Virus record (IMG/VR): IMGVR_UViG_3300034168_000797
Span: 1 to 34,717 of that record
Length of the DNA: 34,717 bases
Origin: a virus
Strand: one strand, 5' to 3'
Each line of letters begins with the position of its first letter. Positions within the stretch are counted from its first letter, which is position 1. The notes under the pieces were generated by a model, which was not told the DNA's origin, made no database searches, and saw only the letters and a program-made list of their open reading frames with translations. A program made the translations under genes and the position numbers. Shown here piece by piece: positions 6,867 to 32,512 of this stretch.

Positions 6867-8234
6867 TTATAAAGTTTTAAGATTTTTCAATATTTTATAA
6901 AGTACATTTACTACAATACTATTACCTGCTTGTTTGTACGCCTGAGAGTCAGAAACAGGCCATGTAAAAGTATCGGGAAAATCCATAAGGCGGAAGCATT
7001 CGCGTGGTGTTAGGCGGCGGATTTTGTAGTTATCTGCAATCAATCCTTCCTTTTGCGGATTAGGATTTGCTAACAAAGTATCAAAATAATCTTGGTCTTT
7101 TATTATCAGTTCTTTGTCTTTAAAACTGCCCGAATCTAAACCAGTCTTTTTAAAATGTTCTTTGCGTCTTTTTTTTTCTTCTTCTGAGCGACCGAATGCA
7201 ATAACCATTACGCCCTGTTTGCATTCAGTATCCAACGTTTGCGCTACACCTTTGCCGACTCTACCTCTTCGTGTTTTGCTTTCGGTAAATTCTAAGTTTA
7301 TTGAATCGCCATCTGTTGCTTCTTCATAACCTGCGGATGTTGCAGATTTGATTTTTATTCCCTCTCCTTTATTTGTGCTTAATGTTGGTGATAATCCATC
7401 CTCATTGTATATATTTCCATTTTGACCGTGACCACATGGATTTGTGTTTCCTATAATTTGTATATAATTGTCAGAATTGCCCATTTTAAAAACTCTTGAT
7501 GTTATACAAGATGCTTCTTTATCTCCTATTGTTGGATTAAATTTATTAAATTGTTGATGATTAATAAGTCCGTTTACCATCTTCTCACTCAAAAAATACT
7601 TTTCATTTACCTCACTTTCTAAAACATCTTTCAGTCTTTTTGTCAAATGCTCCTCAGCCGGAAAACTAAAAACATTATCTAAATCGTCACGAATGCCAAT
7701 CAAAAAAACACGCTCTCTGTTCTGTGGTACTCCGTGATGCTTTGCGTTTAATACTTTCCAATATAAATGATAGGGTACAGAATCGGCATAAGGAAATATA
7801 CTTGTATTTCCATTTATAGATTTACCGCCTAATAAATTAACCCACTCGCTAAAAGTTTTACCGCTATTATCTGAAAGTAAACCTTTGACGTTTTCAAATA
7901 TAAAAAAACGAGGCTTATTTGTTTCGATAAACTCTAAGGAATTAAAAAACAAAATACCTATCTTATCATTTTTGCCTAATCGCTTACCTGCTAAACTGAA
8001 TGATTGACAGGGCGGAGAGGTCATATAAATGTCCAAGGATTCGGAGGGTATTTTACGCTCATAAACATTTGTCGGATAGTATTCTGGCTCCCCGTAGTTA
8101 TGTATAAATGTTTGACGAGCATATTTATCCATATCACAGGCAAATACTTCTTTGTATTTAATGCCGAGCCTGTTCAATGCTTGATTGAATGCACCTACTC
8201 CGCTAAAATCCGATCCTACTTTTATTATATTCAT
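6867..8234 (-). CDS. DNA cytosine-C5 methyltransferase
   Basis: This encodes 455 residues with all conserved motifs of the C5 family in order. Motif I is DFSGVGAFNQAL (residues 9-20). Motif IV is SPPCQSF with catalytic Cys76. Motif VI is ENV (114-116) and motif VIII is QNRERVFLIG (171-180). Motifs IX and X are RRLTPRECFRLMDFP and QAGNSIVVNVLYKI near the C-terminus. The long segment between VIII and IX is the target recognition domain, with repeated Gly/Asn-rich pieces (CGHGQNG, LSPTLSTNKGEG) seen in phage-type enzymes. It should transfer methyl from S-adenosylmethionine to cytosine in phage DNA; no restriction enzyme lies nearby. The start overlaps the glucosaminidase stop (ATGA). It may protect DNA from host restriction or prepare 5-methylcytosine for further modification. 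Confidence 0.93.
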   Translation of the reverse strand: MNIIKVGSDFSGVGAFNQALNRLGIKYKEVFACDMDKYARQTFIHNYGEPEYYPTNVYERKIPSESLDIYMTSPPCQSFSLAGKRLGKNDKIGILFFNSLEFIETNKPRFFIFENVKGLLSDNSGKTFSEWVNLLGGKSINGNTSIFPYADSVPYHLYWKVLNAKHHGVPQNRERVFLIGIRDDLDNVFSFPAEEHLTKRLKDVLESEVNEKYFLSEKMVNGLINHQQFNKFNPTIGDKEASCITSRVFKMGNSDNYIQIIGNTNPCGHGQNGNIYNEDGLSPTLSTNKGEGIKIKSATSAGYEEATDGDSINLEFTESKTRRGRVGKGVAQTLDTECKQGVMVIAFGRSEEEKKRRKEHFKKTGLDSGSFKDKELIIKDQDYFDTLLANPNPQKEGLIADNYKIRRLTPRECFRLMDFPDTFTWPVSDSQAYKQAGNSIVVNVLYKILKNLKTL

Positions 8235-20905: not shown

Positions 20906-22096
20906 TTATCCGTATGCTAATAATCCTTTTGTATGTCCTTTCTTTAACATTCCCATTGCCCAGTACCGGCATGCATCCCATGAGTGATTGAACGCATCGA
21001 CAGGTACCGCTAATTTTTTACCATCCCTCGCCTCTCGCCATTTGTAATTTTGCGCCTCCTTGATCCAGTTCTGACTATTCCTCGTTAAATTTATTTTTCC
21101 GTATTGCTTCATCAAGTTTATTGAGTATTGTATGCTGTCGGGCCCTTTGTCAGCTGGCATTATGTTCCATCCATACATCTTCAACTCATAGATTGATTTC
21201 GGATCTGCAGAGTCTGCAAAGATTTGATCGTTTTTTCTTACGCCGTTCTCAATAAATAAAGAGTTTATGTCTCTATTCGTTAAGCCTATCTGATAAATAA
21301 CCTCTTTGCCATAAATCTCTCCGTCTGATATGCCGCACTCTACCAAAGTTGTTGGATCGTTCGTAAATCCAAAATCGAGACCGAAAGCTCGTTTATCTGT
21401 TTGTGATGGCATTTCATCAACTATTCGATAATCGAAGACAGTACCCTCTATTTTTCCAGTCTGCCCCAGTCCGTAAACCCGCCACAACATCGGATCCTTT
21501 TCTTTCAGCTTTAATATTCCCTCGACGATGCTATCGCTTACAAAATTATTGTGCATAAAGTTAGAGATAAAGTAAGCGACATTGTCATTTCCGATTATCT
21601 TCTCATGTACCCAGAACTCACTATTAGGATTATAGTCAATAAATACCCTCTTATCTGTCCTTAGATTCAGCTCGTTAAATATGTCATAGTGTACCCCGTT
21701 CGCCTCGTTTACAAATAATACGTTACGCTTTCCGTTCTTTGCATCCTGCGCCGTTTGATAACTCGTAAACTCTAAAATAGAACCGTTTTTAAATTTATAG
21801 CATTTCGATGTCCGATTAAATCCTCCGTCTAAGCTGGCTAAAATGAAAGGAGTTTCCGCTGCTATCTTTTCGCTGTCTCTTATGCTGCCCTTTGCCAAGT
21901 TCGGATAATCTTGTCCAACTACAGTAATAACCCATCCGGGATTCTCAATTGCCAGGCAAAACAGAACTTGCATAATAGCGTAAGTTTTACCTGCTGCCGT
22001 TCCGCCTTGATTGATGCAAATAACTTTTTTATTCTTATCTACCTTTGCGTACTTTTCTGGAGTTCTATTCCATAAAAAAATGGCTGTTGTATTCAT
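20906..22096 (-). CDS. terL: Terminase large subunit
   Basis: This 396-residue motor packages DNA into the prohead. The ATPase part has Walker A GGTAAGKT at 31-38 and Walker B VLFVNEAN at 126-133 with catalytic Glu131. The nuclease part has the RNase H-type acids Asp241 (GLDFGFTNDPTT), Asp295 (IFADSADPK) and Asp374 in HSWDACRYW. It resembles the Terminase_3/PBSX-type group. The start overlaps the small terminase stop by one base. Packaging from concatemers by headful cutting would agree with a permuted genome, but the packaging mode cannot be read from the gene alone. It is separated from the portal gene by all tail and lysis genes. Confidence 0.95.
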   Translation of the reverse strand: MNTTAIFLWNRTPEKYAKVDKNKKVICINQGGTAAGKTYAIMQVLFCLAIENPGWVITVVGQDYPNLAKGSIRDSEKIAAETPFILASLDGGFNRTSKCYKFKNGSILEFTSYQTAQDAKNGKRNVLFVNEANGVHYDIFNELNLRTDKRVFIDYNPNSEFWVHEKIIGNDNVAYFISNFMHNNFVSDSIVEGILKLKEKDPMLWRVYGLGQTGKIEGTVFDYRIVDEMPSQTDKRAFGLDFGFTNDPTTLVECGISDGEIYGKEVIYQIGLTNRDINSLFIENGVRKNDQIFADSADPKSIYELKMYGWNIMPADKGPDSIQYSINLMKQYGKINLTRNSQNWIKEAQNYKWREARDGKKLAVPVDAFNHSWDACRYWAMGMLKKGHTKGLLAYG

Positions 22097-22428
22097 TACT
22101 CTGGCTTATAAGGTAGGTTTTCCTTTCCCTGCACTACATTGATTGTAAAGTCTATCTTTTCACCCTCTGCGCCCGTTATCTCAGTCCGTTGTGTTGCTTT
22201 GCCGTAGGTATAGCCTAAAAGCATTTCGACGGCTTTTAAATCGCCTTTAAGGGCCTTATTAACCACAACCGACATAAGTCCGTCGATTAACTGAGTGCCG
22301 TTCTTTTCTTGGCTGAGCAGGTCTTGAAGGACAACCTTAATGTCTTTGAGTGCTGACTTTGGTCGGCCGTTCGGGTTCCCTGACTGACCTTTCTTGTATT
22401 TAAACTTTTGAATATCGTCTTTTGCCAT
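22096..22428 (-). CDS. terS: Terminase small subunit (DUF5681 type)
   Basis: This encodes 110 residues. The N-terminus KYKKGQSGNPNGRPKS is the signature of the DUF5681 family, found just before large terminase genes. A helical centre (LKDIKVVLQDLLSQ, LIDGLMSVVVNKALKGDLKA) follows, then an extended C-terminus (INVVQGKENLPYKPE) that may contact the large subunit. It should recognise the packaging site and start packaging. The gene overlaps terL by one base. Confidence 0.8.
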   Translation of the reverse strand: MAKDDIQKFKYKKGQSGNPNGRPKSALKDIKVVLQDLLSQEKNGTQLIDGLMSVVVNKALKGDLKAVEMLLGYTYGKATQRTEITGAEGEKIDFTINVVQGKENLPYKPE

Positions 22429-22446: not shown

Positions 22447-22632
22447 TTAGTTTAGGCTTTCTAATTTCTTAAGCATTGCTGTTATTGTTTCCATCCGGCC
22501 TTGCAGCTTATCGAGTTTAATCTCAATCTGATCATCTGTCGGATCTGATAATACAAACCAGCTGATCATCTCGCTACAGCCTCGCAAATATTCGAACTCC
22601 CTGCGGAGACGTGTCCGGTCTTCTTTCTTCAT
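22447..22632 (-). CDS. Small helical protein, 61 residues
   Basis: This lies between the GIY-YIG gene and the small terminase and overlaps the endonuclease stop by ATGA. It is charged and fully helical, probably a coiled coil (RRLREFEYLRG-like start MKKEDRTRLRREFEYLRG, end MLKKLESLN). No family is recognised. Before the endonuclease was inserted it may have followed the gene at 23107 directly, as the repeat at its start suggests. Confidence 0.6.
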   Translation of the reverse strand: MKKEDRTRLRREFEYLRGCSEMISWFVLSDPTDDQIEIKLDKLQGRMETITAMLKKLESLN

Positions 22633-23096
22633 CCTTCTATTTCTTTAACTTTTAATTTTACATACCTCTCAATTGTTGAAGACGGAATATTATACTTATT
22701 TGCAAGTTTAATTGTTCCAAAAACATAAGGTATATAGTCAGCTTGAATTTTTTTTATCAAGTCATAATTATATTTAAAAACTCCTTTATTTTTTGCCTTT
22801 ATGCCTTTATTCGGAGAACAATCCCCTCCATCGGTTGCATTTAATAACTTTACTCCTGCAGACCTAAAAAATTTAATATATTGAATTTCTGCCAATTTCG
22901 CTTCCTCTAATGTTAGACTATCCTCGATTAAAACAATTTTTATATTTGGTTTATTTTTATTTATCCAATTTATTTTATGAAAATTATGTCTAAAATCATT
23001 TAGGTGAACTGTAAGTCTTGAAGATAACTTTTTGCAAGTTAAACCTATGTATCTAATTTTATTAGAAATATCAGTTAAATAATATATTTTATACAT
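22629..23096 (-). CDS. GIY-YIG endonuclease, free-standing homing type
   Basis: The first ATG is at 23096, giving 155 residues; a longer frame needs a TTG at 23117. The N-terminus MYKIYYLTDISNKIRYIGLT carries the GIY-YIG strand pair (KIYYL and YIGLT), followed by Arg in SSRLTVHL and the conserved Glu in KLAEIQYIKFF. The C-terminal 50 residues (IKKIQADYIPYVFGTIKLAN, then NIPSSTIERYVK) look like a helix-turn-helix for DNA binding. Such genes cut homologous sites lacking them and spread. This gene is more AT-rich than its neighbours. It is flanked by a 21-base imperfect direct repeat. It starts 10 bases after one gene ends and overlaps the next by ATGA. Confidence 0.85.
   Translation of the reverse strand: MYKIYYLTDISNKIRYIGLTCKKLSSRLTVHLNDFRHNFHKINWINKNKPNIKIVLIEDSLTLEEAKLAEIQYIKFFRSAGVKLLNATDGGDCSPNKGIKAKNKGVFKYNYDLIKKIQADYIPYVFGTIKLANKYNIPSSTIERYVKLKVKEIEG
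22633..22653. repeat. Direct repeat copy at the 3' end of the GIY-YIG gene
   Basis: The 21 bases here and at 23111-23131 agree at 19 positions, both ending in TTTAACTTTT on the plus strand. They encode the shared C-terminal residues KVKEIEG here and KVKQIEG there. Confidence 0.75.
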
Positions 23097-23106
23097 TATA
23101 TAAATT

Positions 23107-23571
23107 TTAGCCTTCAATTTGTTTAACTTTTCTAATTGCCCAGTCTACACCCTCAGTTCCTCCCCACGCATCCCAGACAATTGTGCCGCATCCTTCCTCG
23201 TAGGACTTTCCGGCAAACCTTCTGAACCTTTGGAAGGCTGCCATTCTTTTGATTGTTTCAAAACTTATCGGCTCTCTATTTGCTAACTGATTAGCTCGGG
23301 CCCATCCTACCGGAGTGCCGCATCCTCTCGGGTTTCCTGTTTCGTCTCTCCATTTCAAAGCCCTCTTTGCATTTATTGTCGCTGCTTGCGGATAGTCGGT
23401 AAATGTCTCTTGAGCTAATATTTCCTTTTGCGCCTGCTTTTCGTATGTGACAAGACAAACTGCATACCTTTGCTTTTCGTCCGGATAGTCAGTATTCATA
23501 TTTTCGTCCGACATACAGCGATCGATAAACTTGTCGACGTCTTCTGTTGGTGTTGGCGTGGGTATTGGCAT
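23107..23571 (-). CDS. Conserved phage protein of unknown function, 154 residues
   Basis: The N-terminus (MPIPTPTPTEDVDKFIDRCM, then DYPDEKQRYAVCLVTYEKQ) matches a short motif found in many phage virion and morphogenesis proteins. Residues about 65-154 form a second domain (NAKRALKWRDETGNPRGC, FETIKRMAAFQRFRRFAG, then IVWDAWGGTEGVDWAIRK) that is widespread in phages and ends in the typical KVKQIEG. Function is not established as far as I know. Neighbours are a glycosyltransferase and the inserted endonuclease. Its last 21 bases form one copy of the direct repeat. Confidence 0.6.
   Translation of the reverse strand: MPIPTPTPTEDVDKFIDRCMSDENMNTDYPDEKQRYAVCLVTYEKQAQKEILAQETFTDYPQAATINAKRALKWRDETGNPRGCGTPVGWARANQLANREPISFETIKRMAAFQRFRRFAGKSYEEGCGTIVWDAWGGTEGVDWAIRKVKQIEG
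23111..23131. repeat. Direct repeat copy upstream of the GIY-YIG gene
   Basis: This is the partner of 22633-22653, 478 bases away, with 19 of 21 bases identical. It forms the 3' end of the gene at 23107 and lies just before the ATG of the endonuclease at 23096. Confidence 0.75.
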
Positions 23572-23573
23572 AG

Positions 23574-24338
23574 TTATAATTTTTTTTTAAATTGTTTCCA
23601 ATCTATCATATGATGATGACGATTAAATCTTATTACGGTCTTTGTATATTGCGGCCAAACCGCCTCTAACATTTTTGCTTTTAAAAGATTTTTTTTTGGA
23701 GCATTACCTTTATATAATTCTGTTTGATTTCCACCTTTCATTTTAACCGCTGTGCTTACTTTATTAGCCATATAATAAACACAACTCGCCGTACTTCCTC
23801 CATTATGTAATACTTGTAAACATAGGTCTACGTCTTCATTATATTTTAGTCTCCACCTAAATGGTAAGTTATTTTTAATTAACATAGCTGAATATACGTG
23901 ACAATTAATTTTAAATGGTTTTTTAGGTGGCTTTACTACAAAATTTGGCTCTTCAAATCCACCTATTGAAATATTATTTTTTTCAACGAAATTTTCTACA
24001 TATATAAATCCTTCTTTTAATGATTCAATTTTTTTTCTTTTACCATTTATCCATTTCATCCAAAATAATATATTATCGTCAAATAGCCAATGATATTTTG
24101 CTCCTATAGATTTTGCATGTTCCCAACAAAAATTTCTTGCTGGATATGAACCTAAACCAAGATTACAAAAAGGTAGTTTTAAAACTCTATGAACTCCTAA
24201 TTTATTACAATAATGTTCATATTCTTGTGGCTCAACTGCAATATAATAATCAATACCAGCAGCTTCAAAATTATCGGCTGTTAACGTTTTTTCATATCTT
24301 CCTTTTGATATTATATAGACTGGATATTTTATTTTCAT
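23574..24338 (-). CDS. TET-associated-type glycosyltransferase (TAGT-like)
   Basis: This encodes 254 residues. The pattern YPVYIISKGRYEKTLTADNF, then AVEPQEYEHY (34-43), LPFCNLGLGSYPARNF (55-70), HWLFDDNI (83-90) and YNEDVDLCL (166-174), and the end RFNRHHHMIDWKQF fit the phage family known as TET-associated glycosyltransferases, related to the C-terminal domain of GREB1. DDN probably takes the metal and nucleotide-sugar role of a DXD. Members add sugars to hydroxylated 5-methylcytosine in phage DNA. Here it overlaps the second glycosyltransferase by ATGA and follows a ParB-like gene, while a C5 methyltransferase lies at 6867. The gene is AT-rich, suggesting acquisition. The substrate is inference because no TET enzyme is visible. 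Confidence 0.75.
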   Translation of the reverse strand: MKIKYPVYIISKGRYEKTLTADNFEAAGIDYYIAVEPQEYEHYCNKLGVHRVLKLPFCNLGLGSYPARNFCWEHAKSIGAKYHWLFDDNILFWMKWINGKRKKIESLKEGFIYVENFVEKNNISIGGFEEPNFVVKPPKKPFKINCHVYSAMLIKNNLPFRWRLKYNEDVDLCLQVLHNGGSTASCVYYMANKVSTAVKMKGGNQTELYKGNAPKKNLLKAKMLEAVWPQYTKTVIRFNRHHHMIDWKQFKKKL

Positions 24339-24991
24339 TTTTTTTGCTTATTTGGATTTCCTCCCCATTTATGATTAGAAAAATGTGCAGCAATCATTTC
24401 CTCAGGAAAGTTTTTTATATTTTTGAACATATATTCTTTTTCATTTTTTTTAGGCGCCATAAATCCATTATATGGATAAAATGTTTTTATAGGCAAATGC
24501 GTAACATCTGATCTTCCAAATAAAACAGATGAAATAAATGCAGGGCCAGTTTGAACAGATGCGCTATGATTTATATGTTCATAAAACCATTTTGGCAGTT
24601 TATTGATTAGTTCATAAATTGCTAAATGATTTTTTGGACTACCAATTATTGCGCTTTCAAAACTTTTAGAGGATCTCATTCCTAAAAATGGATTTATGTT
24701 ATTTATTAAATTATTAAATGACTTGATAGGCATTACATCAGTGTCTACATAAATTCCACCGTATTAATACAATGCTAATATTCTTGCAACGTCAGACCAA
24801 CCAGCATAAGTTTTAATTTTTTTTAAAATTGGGGCAATCTCATCTGGAACATATAATTGTTTAAAATCAGTTATAGTGATAAATTCATAATCTGGATGAA
24901 TTTTTTTAAAATCCGCCCACCATTTTTCAAATTGTATTGGAATAACATCATTTCCAAACCATACTCTTATGAATCTTTTTGGTATTGTCAT
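24335..24991 (-). pseudogene. GT32-type glycosyltransferase interrupted by an in-frame TAA
   Basis: Reading from the ATG at 24991, 75 residues (MTIPKRFIRVWFGNDVIPI to GWSDVARILALY) are followed by TAA at 24766-24764. The same frame continues without shift as YGGIYVDTDVMPIKSF and on to TAA at 24335. The family pattern is LxLYxYGGIYLDTDV, so the stop replaces one residue just before the catalytic DTD motif. The C-terminal part has TGPAFISSVLF and AAHFSNHKWGGN, also typical of the OCH1/capsular sugar transferase group. One base change from AAA, CAA or GAA would explain the stop. The upstream part lacks the active site; a restart at the ATG at 24733 would also miss it. Both ends overlap neighbours by ATGA, so the operon is otherwise intact. 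It could be a real loss, a sequencing error or read-through. Confidence 0.85.
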
Positions 24992-25617
24992 AATTGAAAT
25001 TTTTTTGTTGACATATCAACTTGCCAAGCCATATTTCTTTTAATAAATTTTACATTTAATGAGTTTAAATAACTCTCCGCCTCTTCATTTCCATCGAATA
25101 TAAAAACAACTCTTTGCTGTCCTGCGCTTAATCCTATTGGGTCAAAATCATCATCAAGATTAATATCTTCTTCAGACATTAAATTTTCGTCAATTCCTAA
25201 ACTCCAATTAGGAACATCCATTCCCCACTCTTCCAGCTCCTCCGCCTCCCACTCATTCGCAAGCAAGTCCCAGTCGTTTTCACCAAATGCAACATTATCT
25301 TTTATAGTAAATGCTCGCAGCTGCTCAGCTGTTGTTTCCGCTGATAGGATCTTGCAGGGAAGTTCTGTATAACCGAGATCGACCGCAGCACGATATCGCA
25401 TATTGCCGCCTATTATGACAAAAGTATCGTTAAGAGGATAAACAAGCAGTTCCCTTGCCCCGAGCATTTCGGGATTGTCCTCTATAGATTTTTTTAGCTT
25501 TTCGTACTTTTGATCCTTTATAAAACGAGGATTTTTTGGCACGCCTGCAATCTGACCAGTATTATTACAAATCTTAGATATGGCAATGCTTTTACTTTTT
25601 ATAATTTCAATTTTCAT
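24988..25617 (-). CDS. ParB/sulfiredoxin-fold protein
   Basis: This encodes 209 residues. Residues about 20-95 carry a ParB-like N-terminal domain: GVPKNPRFIKDQKYEKLKKS, then the nucleotide-binding motif GGNMRYRAAVDLGY and LPCKIL. Residues 95-150 (RAFTIKDNVAFGENDWDLLA) continue as in phage ParB-like proteins. The C-terminal 60 residues (RVVFIFDGNEEAESYLNSL) form a small domain found with them. Known roles of the fold include CTPase, nuclease and base-modification-linked functions. It is unlikely to be a partition protein because no parA or parS array is present. Its stop overlaps the glycosyltransferase start by ATGA, which suggests a joint role in DNA modification; this is inference. Confidence 0.75.
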   Translation of the reverse strand: MKIEIIKSKSIAISKICNNTGQIAGVPKNPRFIKDQKYEKLKKSIEDNPEMLGARELLVYPLNDTFVIIGGNMRYRAAVDLGYTELPCKILSAETTAEQLRAFTIKDNVAFGENDWDLLANEWEAEELEEWGMDVPNWSLGIDENLMSEEDINLDDDFDPIGLSAGQQRVVFIFDGNEEAESYLNSLNVKFIKRNMAWQVDMSTKKFQL

Positions 25618-31675: not shown

Positions 31676-32512
31676 TTATAATAGTAGCTTTTGCTGAGAT
31701 ATTTTTTTGCCTAAAATTTTAGGATAATTTTCTCGCTCTGAGTCAAATGATAACTTTTTTAGAACAGTCCCCTTAACAAAACAATTCCACGCCTTAATCA
31801 TAAAAATTGTCTTTAAAGTATTGTTTATTTTTTTATGACTCATCTTGTCTTTCATAAACGTATTTCTGAGCAAAAGCATTGTTCCATTAGATACGTTAAT
31901 GCCTGAACAAAGCTCATCCATAAATTTTTCAGCAAGATCTGGATCTATTTCTTTAAAAACTGAATAAAATCCTCCTATAAAACTTTTTGCTAATATTTTT
32001 GCAAATGATAAATACCAGTTATGCGATTTTTTACATACATCTTGCCACAATTTATCATTTTCATAATATTTTTCTAATAGTTGAGCATTAGTAAGTCTCA
32101 TGTTTTTTTGACCGGATGTAAAATGACCATTATTTATTAAATAATACGTTTGCATTATAGAAGGAATTGAGCTGTCATTTGCTATTCCATTAAGCTTAAA
32201 AACATCAGTAGCATTCCTTACGCAACCAGTATCAAGGACATCGCTTACTGATTCTTCAACTCCATAACAAATATCCATAAACACATGAGTATTTGCTTTT
32301 ATTATTGCGTAAAGTCGATGCTGTCCGTCTAAAACAATACCGGAGTTCGATATTTTTATAAATTCTGCAGTATCTTGCTTCCAGCGCCCGGCTAAAATGT
32401 CATTAGCATATCTTATCACAACTTCTGTTTTTACTCGTCTGTTGTTTATATTTCCTTCGAGCAATTCTTTCGCTCTTGAAGGGGTTATCAATTCTTTTTT
32501 AAAATAAATCAT
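31676..32512 (-). CDS. DGQHRL-motif protein (ParB/sulfiredoxin-like)
   Basis: This encodes 278 residues. The N-terminal 80 residues include VVIRYANDILAGRWKQDTAE and the motif GIVLDGQHRLYAI (58-70). This motif occurs in ParB-like and DndB-like DGQHR proteins of phages. After VSDVLDTGCVRNATDVFKLN the rest is helical (LLEKYYENDKLWQDVC) and without known motifs. A role in DNA binding, sensing of modified DNA or transcription control is possible. It is the last gene of the first early transcript. Confidence 0.7.
   Translation of the reverse strand: MIYFKKELITPSRAKELLEGNINNRRVKTEVVIRYANDILAGRWKQDTAEFIKISNSGIVLDGQHRLYAIIKANTHVFMDICYGVEESVSDVLDTGCVRNATDVFKLNGIANDSSIPSIMQTYYLINNGHFTSGQKNMRLTNAQLLEKYYENDKLWQDVCKKSHNWYLSFAKILAKSFIGGFYSVFKEIDPDLAEKFMDELCSGINVSNGTMLLLRNTFMKDKMSHKKINNTLKTIFMIKAWNCFVKGTVLKKLSFDSERENYPKILGKKISQQKLLL

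Follow-up and report, generated by a model that had tools for sequence, protein, structure and literature searches.

In phages T2 and T6, which are among the closest described systems, DNA is glucosylated by a TAGT; TAGT enzymes have the GT-A fold, and the T6 TAGT adds a second glucose (PMC13216743). TAGT genes were present without an alpha- or beta-GT in 288 of 753 phage genomes, for which the authors suggest novel transferases (PMC13216743). ParBc genes occur near the cytosine carboxymethyltransferase CmoX, and ParB-methyltransferase fusions are frequent, their role being stated as unknown (PMC12783734). Non-specific nicking by a ParB-methylase has also been described (PMC5512222). Here we analysed a viral DNA stretch of 34,717 nucleotides (IMG/VR record IMGVR_UViG_3300034168_000797, referred to as the window), in which a TAGT gene and a ParB-like gene lie close together just before the terminase genes. 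Judged from sequence, these genes are most likely a swappable set that would put sugars on the phage's own DNA.

The window-type TAGT resembles the T2/T6 enzyme Ggt (beta-glucosyl-HMC-alpha-glucosyltransferase) in being a phage gene product with a PF20691 match, a GT-A fold, and DxD-type and ED motifs. It differs in having a ParB-like partner and a very distant sequence, and no hydroxymethylase or other DNA glucosyltransferase was found with it. The TET-TAGT hypermodification clusters (e.g. Nonlabens phage P12024L) have the TAGT family and Bacteroidota phages of similar size in common with this locus, but the window cassette and record are without TET, and near its C-terminus the window-type TAGT carries a region with an HH motif (RxHHxxxW) that the TET-linked TAGTs compared do not have. 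As in the ParB-methyltransferase fusions and the ParBc genes beside CmoX (PMC12783734), a ParB-type domain in phages is fused to or lies beside a DNA-modifying enzyme; here, however, the enzyme is a glycosyltransferase and the ParB tail is specific to TAGT. Mom cassettes have a related ParB N-domain directly upstream and a terminase downstream, as here, and differ in the enzyme (PF25680) and in having another ParB tail. The solitary TAGTs (PMC13216743) are likewise without alpha- or beta-glucosyltransferase; that paper does not mention ParB, whereas here the TAGT has a fixed partner and a fixed place. A literature search that covered few subscription journals found no publication joining ParB with TAGT or other glycosyltransferases, or a ParB-like protein with Mom and terminase, in phage DNA modification. 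The features considered are the following:

6867..8234, minus strand: C5-cytosine DNA methyltransferase (PF00145, 225 bits), judged to lie outside the cassette
20906..22096, minus strand: terminase large subunit (PF04466 and PF17288 above cut-off; phrog_5653)
22096..22428, minus strand: probable terminase small subunit (DUF5681; PF18932, 55.7 bits), overlapping the large subunit gene and named from its position
22629..23117, minus strand: GIY-YIG endonuclease gene (PF01541, 29.5 bits), AT-rich (GC 0.25), a probable mobile insertion
23107..23571, minus strand: small conserved gene with no assigned function (phrog_2859), directly downstream of TAGT and near ParB-TAGT in 7/45 loci
23574..24338, minus strand: TAGT-family GT-A glycosyltransferase, 254 aa (PF20691, alignment, fold model)
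24335..24991, minus strand: GT32-type glycosyltransferase, interrupted, optional in the cassette (translation, intact relatives)
24988..25617, minus strand: ParB-like gene, whole ORF
24988..25167, minus strand: ParB C-terminal tail, matched to the partner, the proposed TAGT dock (tail profile, GC)
25168..25617, minus strand: ParB N-terminal part (residues 1-150) with ParB/Srx-fold and GGNMR (GxxR) motif, the constant part of the cassette

The ATGA overlaps that the original prediction described between the ParB-like, GT32 and TAGT genes were present at 24988-24991 and 24335-24338, and the operon runs on into the terminase genes. Conservation of this order was analysed in 45 loci, namely the window and 44 IMG/VR contigs with TAGT relatives of 67-100% identity, by clustering all ORFs. 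In 44 of the 45 loci the gene immediately upstream of TAGT was ParB; the exception (L006) is truncated by the end of its contig. TerL-like genes followed ParB-TAGT in 40/45, usually with TerS between TAGT and TerL. Megablast with the first 25 kb of the window found no near-identical cultured phage.

The predicted TAGT gene proved real. The ORF matched PF20691, the Pfam TAGT family, over the full profile (124.7 bits against a cut-off of 27.5, E=6.4e-36; residues 5-203, profile positions 1-205 of 205), and also phrog_842 (E=4.3e-33). Mean column identity across the alignment of 34 TAGT sequences was 69%, the motifs DDN (87-89), NED (167-169) and KGGNQ were invariant, and dN/dS was approximately 0.05-0.12, indicating purifying selection; this strong conservation together with the selection shows that the ORF is not a chance one. 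The predicted structure (pLDDT 80.5) has a GT-A fold and aligned with GT-A enzymes at Z 13-15, values that fix the fold only and say nothing of the acceptor. Placement in a polysaccharide glycosyltransferase family, the outcome named beforehand as contrary to the prediction, was not observed. No solved structure was found among the sequence relatives. In the tree, the nearest neighbours of the window clade were TAGTs from phages of Vibrio, Aeromonas and Pectobacterium. T6 Ggt, the characterised TAGT, stood far off and was missed by the window-clade profile, a distance that counts against the proposed role in DNA modification; the closest named relatives had 30-40% identity and included T4-like phages such as Aeh1. 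Arabinose as the sugar, as in the RB69/POP12 idea, was considered and not adopted; POP12 sits in the wider TAGT clade.

Two kinds of natural damaged TAGT allele were observed. In L010:7983-8753 and L011:1520-2290 a tryptophan codon is replaced by a stop after FDDNIQY, the intact gene of L009:7983-8753 being 99.87% identical. The remnant in L056:3674-3948 joins residues 4-33 to 193-253, so that the catalytic middle is deleted while the ParB tail is kept. TAGT is thus dispensable in some settings, a point against the proposed cassette. Vibrio phage Kuja (L049:3233-5921) has two TAGT genes in tandem, both extended at the N-terminus, adjoining a DNA end protector gene. A ParB-TAGT fusion in cultured Vibrio phages was rejected as an explanation of such extensions, which were unlike ParB by eye and gave no match with the ParB profile.

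The ParB-like gene was also confirmed, although its single-protein Pfam score was under the cut-off (18.6 vs 26.3 bits). A family profile compared with the PDB retrieved ParB crystal structures at E=1.5e-8, with the match confined to the N-terminal domain, and the predicted fold resembles CTP-bound ParB. No Pfam match was obtained for a second domain in the protein.

The second glycosyltransferase, which the original prediction had named as a possible partner in DNA glycosylation, is neither a complete gene in the window nor a regular member of the cassette. One in-frame TAA (24764-24766) interrupts the GT32 DXD region (LY*YGGIYVDTD) and leaves the fragments 24764-24991 and 24335-24733. The genes of L005, L007 and L026 are uninterrupted (PF04488, 42-45 bits), with TAT, GAT and CAA respectively at the position of the stop. 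L001 has the same stop and is 100% identical to the window over 11.9 kb, and consequently does not count as independent evidence. GT32 genes were found in 5/45 TAGT loci (the window and these four) and in the contigs L175 and L176, always between ParB and TAGT. A role as core partner was ruled out, the gene being optional and broken. At the same place L033:2596-3570 has a 324-aa gene of no assigned function.

Relatives of the ParB-like protein were collected by ParB alignment alone (594 found, the best 80 of which were kept). In these 80, the partner at the same position, usually before the terminase, was an N6/N4 methyltransferase fusion, Mom, a C5 methyltransferase, an ABC-GNAT protein, a DpdA-like protein, TAGT, TAGT with TET, FkbM with TET or a GT-B-like protein with TET. 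Pfam supported Mom (172.8 bits), N6_N4_Mtase fused to ParB_N, DNA_methylase, QueC and PAPS_reduct, and a Tet_JBP match was obtained at 40.1 bits (cut-off 34.9); the GT-B label of L101 was given by eye only, with no family matched. In the Melioribacter locus L129 the genes ParB, DpdA-like, ParB, TAGT and terminase are consecutive. From these sequences we conclude that ParB-TAGT is a putative exchangeable, ParB-guided DNA-modification cassette. That some of the partners (the ABC-GNAT protein and a phosphoesterase-like protein) are DNA-modifying enzymes is not proven, which counts against this conclusion.

Several of the partner genes are of interest in themselves. The DpdA-like genes (phrog_887) behind ParB in L053 (with QueC), L066, L106 and L129 mark probable deazaguanine DNA modification cassettes. 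A protein combining an ABC-type ATPase and a GNAT acetyltransferase accompanies the same ParB in L074, L083, L086, L105, L115, L119 and L125, and in Leptospira phage LE3 (L161:6486-7586); it is possibly a Mom-like modification system. TET lies behind ParB with an FkbM-type methyltransferase (L092, L113, L120) or a GT-B-like protein (L099, L101) in the place of TAGT, and these cassettes are possible sources of new TET-based modifications. In L118:5569-7559 ParB is followed by an uncharacterised protein and a PAPS-reductase/DUF3440 protein. Radical-SAM-type proteins adjoin ParB (L055:5825-7033) or ParB-TAGT (L168:6871-7833, by motif only).

The two parts of ParB behaved differently across partners. 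The N-domain profile scored 96-187 bits for every partner type. The window-clade tail profile scored 64-106 bits in loci with a window-type TAGT, 78 bits in L056 and approximately 0 with other partners. All-against-all comparison of the tails gave 255 similar pairs, 184 of which had the same partner label (mean 34 and maximum 54 in 1000 shuffles), and the pairs of window-type TAGT tails matched in 105/105 cases. TET cassettes had one common tail type, whether the other enzyme was TAGT, FkbM or GT-B. In these sequences the tail behaves as if it followed TET in the TET cassettes and TAGT in the window-type TET-less cassettes. Shared ancestry of loci with the same partner may account for part of this matching, and the shuffles ignore kinship; the similarity of the N-domain across partners argues against pure descent as its cause. 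GC content was 0.40 in the ParB N part, 0.29 in the tail, 0.285 in GT32 and 0.277 in TAGT, against 0.376 in the whole window. The drop at the tail boundary, with low values to the end of TAGT, points to an exchanged block of approximately 23574-25167, and a GC fall inside ParB is the pattern that would be expected of such a block.

Next, enzymes that could provide an acceptor for the sugar were considered. The absence of a TET enzyme, already stated in the original prediction, was confirmed. Of 48 records searched with PF12851 (TET), the 11 whose cassette has a TET-like gene all gave a match and the 37 with TET-less cassettes gave none; these 37 take in records of 42, 34.5 and 29 kb and the window, whose record may be incomplete. 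A profile made from the TET genes of related cassettes and run over all ORFs of 11 records gave nothing credible outside TET-adjacent cassettes and had no match in nine long TET-less records, and a TET hidden elsewhere in the record was discarded as an explanation. PF00303 (thymidylate-synthase family, including dCMP hydroxymethylase) had no match in 23 records or in four ParB-TAGT phage records, while the same search picked up T6 gp42 (dCMP hydroxymethylase) as a positive control; hydroxymethylation at the nucleotide level was rejected. The Pfam scan of the larger ORFs of the window showed no oxygenase, and many small ORFs had no family match. Among the nine longest TET-less records only ParB and TAGT were universal, the other widely common genes being phage core genes such as TerL. 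A new oxidation enzyme is possible, but if it exists it is consequently not one that these records have in common. ParB itself is unlikely to be the hydroxylase, since ParB proteins of this type also accompany methyltransferases and Mom. The searches detected no enzyme that would yield a hydroxylated base, which leaves the acceptor without a source and counts against the proposed cassette.

Two complete Lactobacillus phage genomes, phi jlb1 and JNU_P11, and the genome of a P. gingivalis phage also had the order ParB-TAGT-TerS-TerL. Pfam confirmed the TAGT in phi jlb1 and the P. gingivalis phage, and PF12851 and PF00303 detected neither TET nor a thymidylate-synthase-family enzyme in any of the three. 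The window-clade ParB profile recovered the ParB of jlb1 and JNU_P11 (E approximately 5e-19) and, weakly, that of the P. gingivalis phage (9e-4). Among the six papers that a literature search on phi jlb1 listed, none was evidently on its DNA modification. In 395 genomes of the Melioribacter phylum there were three strong TAGT matches (90-123 bits), each after a ParB-like gene and two of them followed by a terminase; one of the three is not independent, since the search was centred on Melioribacter. Six further matches were weak, and the three of them inspected sit among sugar-transferase genes without ParB.

We consider it likely that the ParB-TAGT pair is a two-component DNA-modification cassette beside the terminase, in which the ParB tail would hold TAGT on phage DNA for glycosylation of the bases. 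The basis for this is gene order, homology, partner exchange, tail-partner matching and the absence of TET and thymidylate-synthase-family enzymes. The ParB N-domain, common to many such cassettes, would bind DNA, probably in a nucleotide-dependent manner, and the C-terminal tail would dock the modifying enzyme, here TAGT, which in TET-less cassettes would occupy the place taken elsewhere by Mom, a methyltransferase or TET. TAGT would then add a sugar, taken from a nucleotide-sugar of the host, to bases late in infection, before or during packaging, and the sugar-bearing DNA would presumably be protected from nucleases.

Alternative readings differ in the acceptor or in the target. Compatible with the two-component cassette, and a real possibility although short of an even chance, is that TAGT acts on a hydroxylated pyrimidine provided by an unrecognised phage hydroxylase or a host enzyme: TAGT chemistry in PMC13216743 and PMC13390438 always uses 5-hydroxymethyl- or hydroxy-cytosine-type acceptors, TAGT adjoins TET in related cassettes, and the small ORFs without family match leave room for such an enzyme; against this, complete phage genomes and the longest records lacked PF12851 and PF00303 although the T6 control was found, and the nine longest TET-less records had nothing beyond ParB, TAGT and core genes in common. 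Direct, ParB-guided attachment of the sugar to an unmodified base (e.g. at an exocyclic amine), without prior hydroxylation, is a more tentative suggestion. The pathway of the original prediction, in which the C5 methyltransferase makes 5mC, an oxidase hydroxylates it, and TAGT and GT32 add sugars, is very improbable. The methyltransferase is full-length as predicted, but it lies approximately 15 kb from the cassette and has counterparts in only 2/38 relatives, on which ground a role as the first step was judged unlikely; TET is absent and GT32 is broken. Phage DNA glycosylation, the more general part of that prediction, is well supported by the ParB partner swapping and the matched tails, while the roles assigned to the methyltransferase and GT32 are not supported.

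GT32 families usually act on glycans. This would suit an action of TAGT, with GT32 where intact, on proteins of the virion or on the surface of the host, in which case the place beside the head genes would be incidental; protein and polysaccharide glycosyltransferases also top the fold search, as would be expected with any GT-A fold, and a PBCV-1 capsid-glycosylating enzyme is among the Foldseek matches. We regard such a target as unlikely, however, given that TAGT is constantly accompanied by a ParB-like protein, which pairs elsewhere with DNA-modifying enzymes and has partner-matched tails, and that the weak TAGT-like matches in bacterial polysaccharide-type loci are without ParB. Least probable is a plasmid-type partition protein whose pairing with TAGT is functionally meaningless. 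Several phage records do annotate a ParB-like partition protein, but in solved ParB proteins the family profile matches no more than the N-terminal domain, the rest of the phage protein being the partner-matched tail, and the adjacency to TAGT extends through 44/45 loci and into unrelated hosts.

The proposed two-component cassette joins two questions, the substrate of solitary TAGTs (PMC13216743) and the role of ParB beside phage DNA-modifying enzymes (PMC12783734). The fixed pairing, the matched tail and the exchange site within ParB suggest that ParB serves as a shared platform by which various DNA-modifying enzymes are brought to phage DNA where the packaging genes lie. The complete cultured Lactobacillus phages, with ParB-TAGT and no TET, may have a DNA modification that is new, or else a new acceptor route; direct base glycosylation, if true, would be a hitherto undescribed kind of DNA glycosylation system, made up of two proteins. 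In the window, a second protein with a DGQHR motif recalling ParB-like proteins is encoded at 31676-32512 (phrog_5931, no function assigned).
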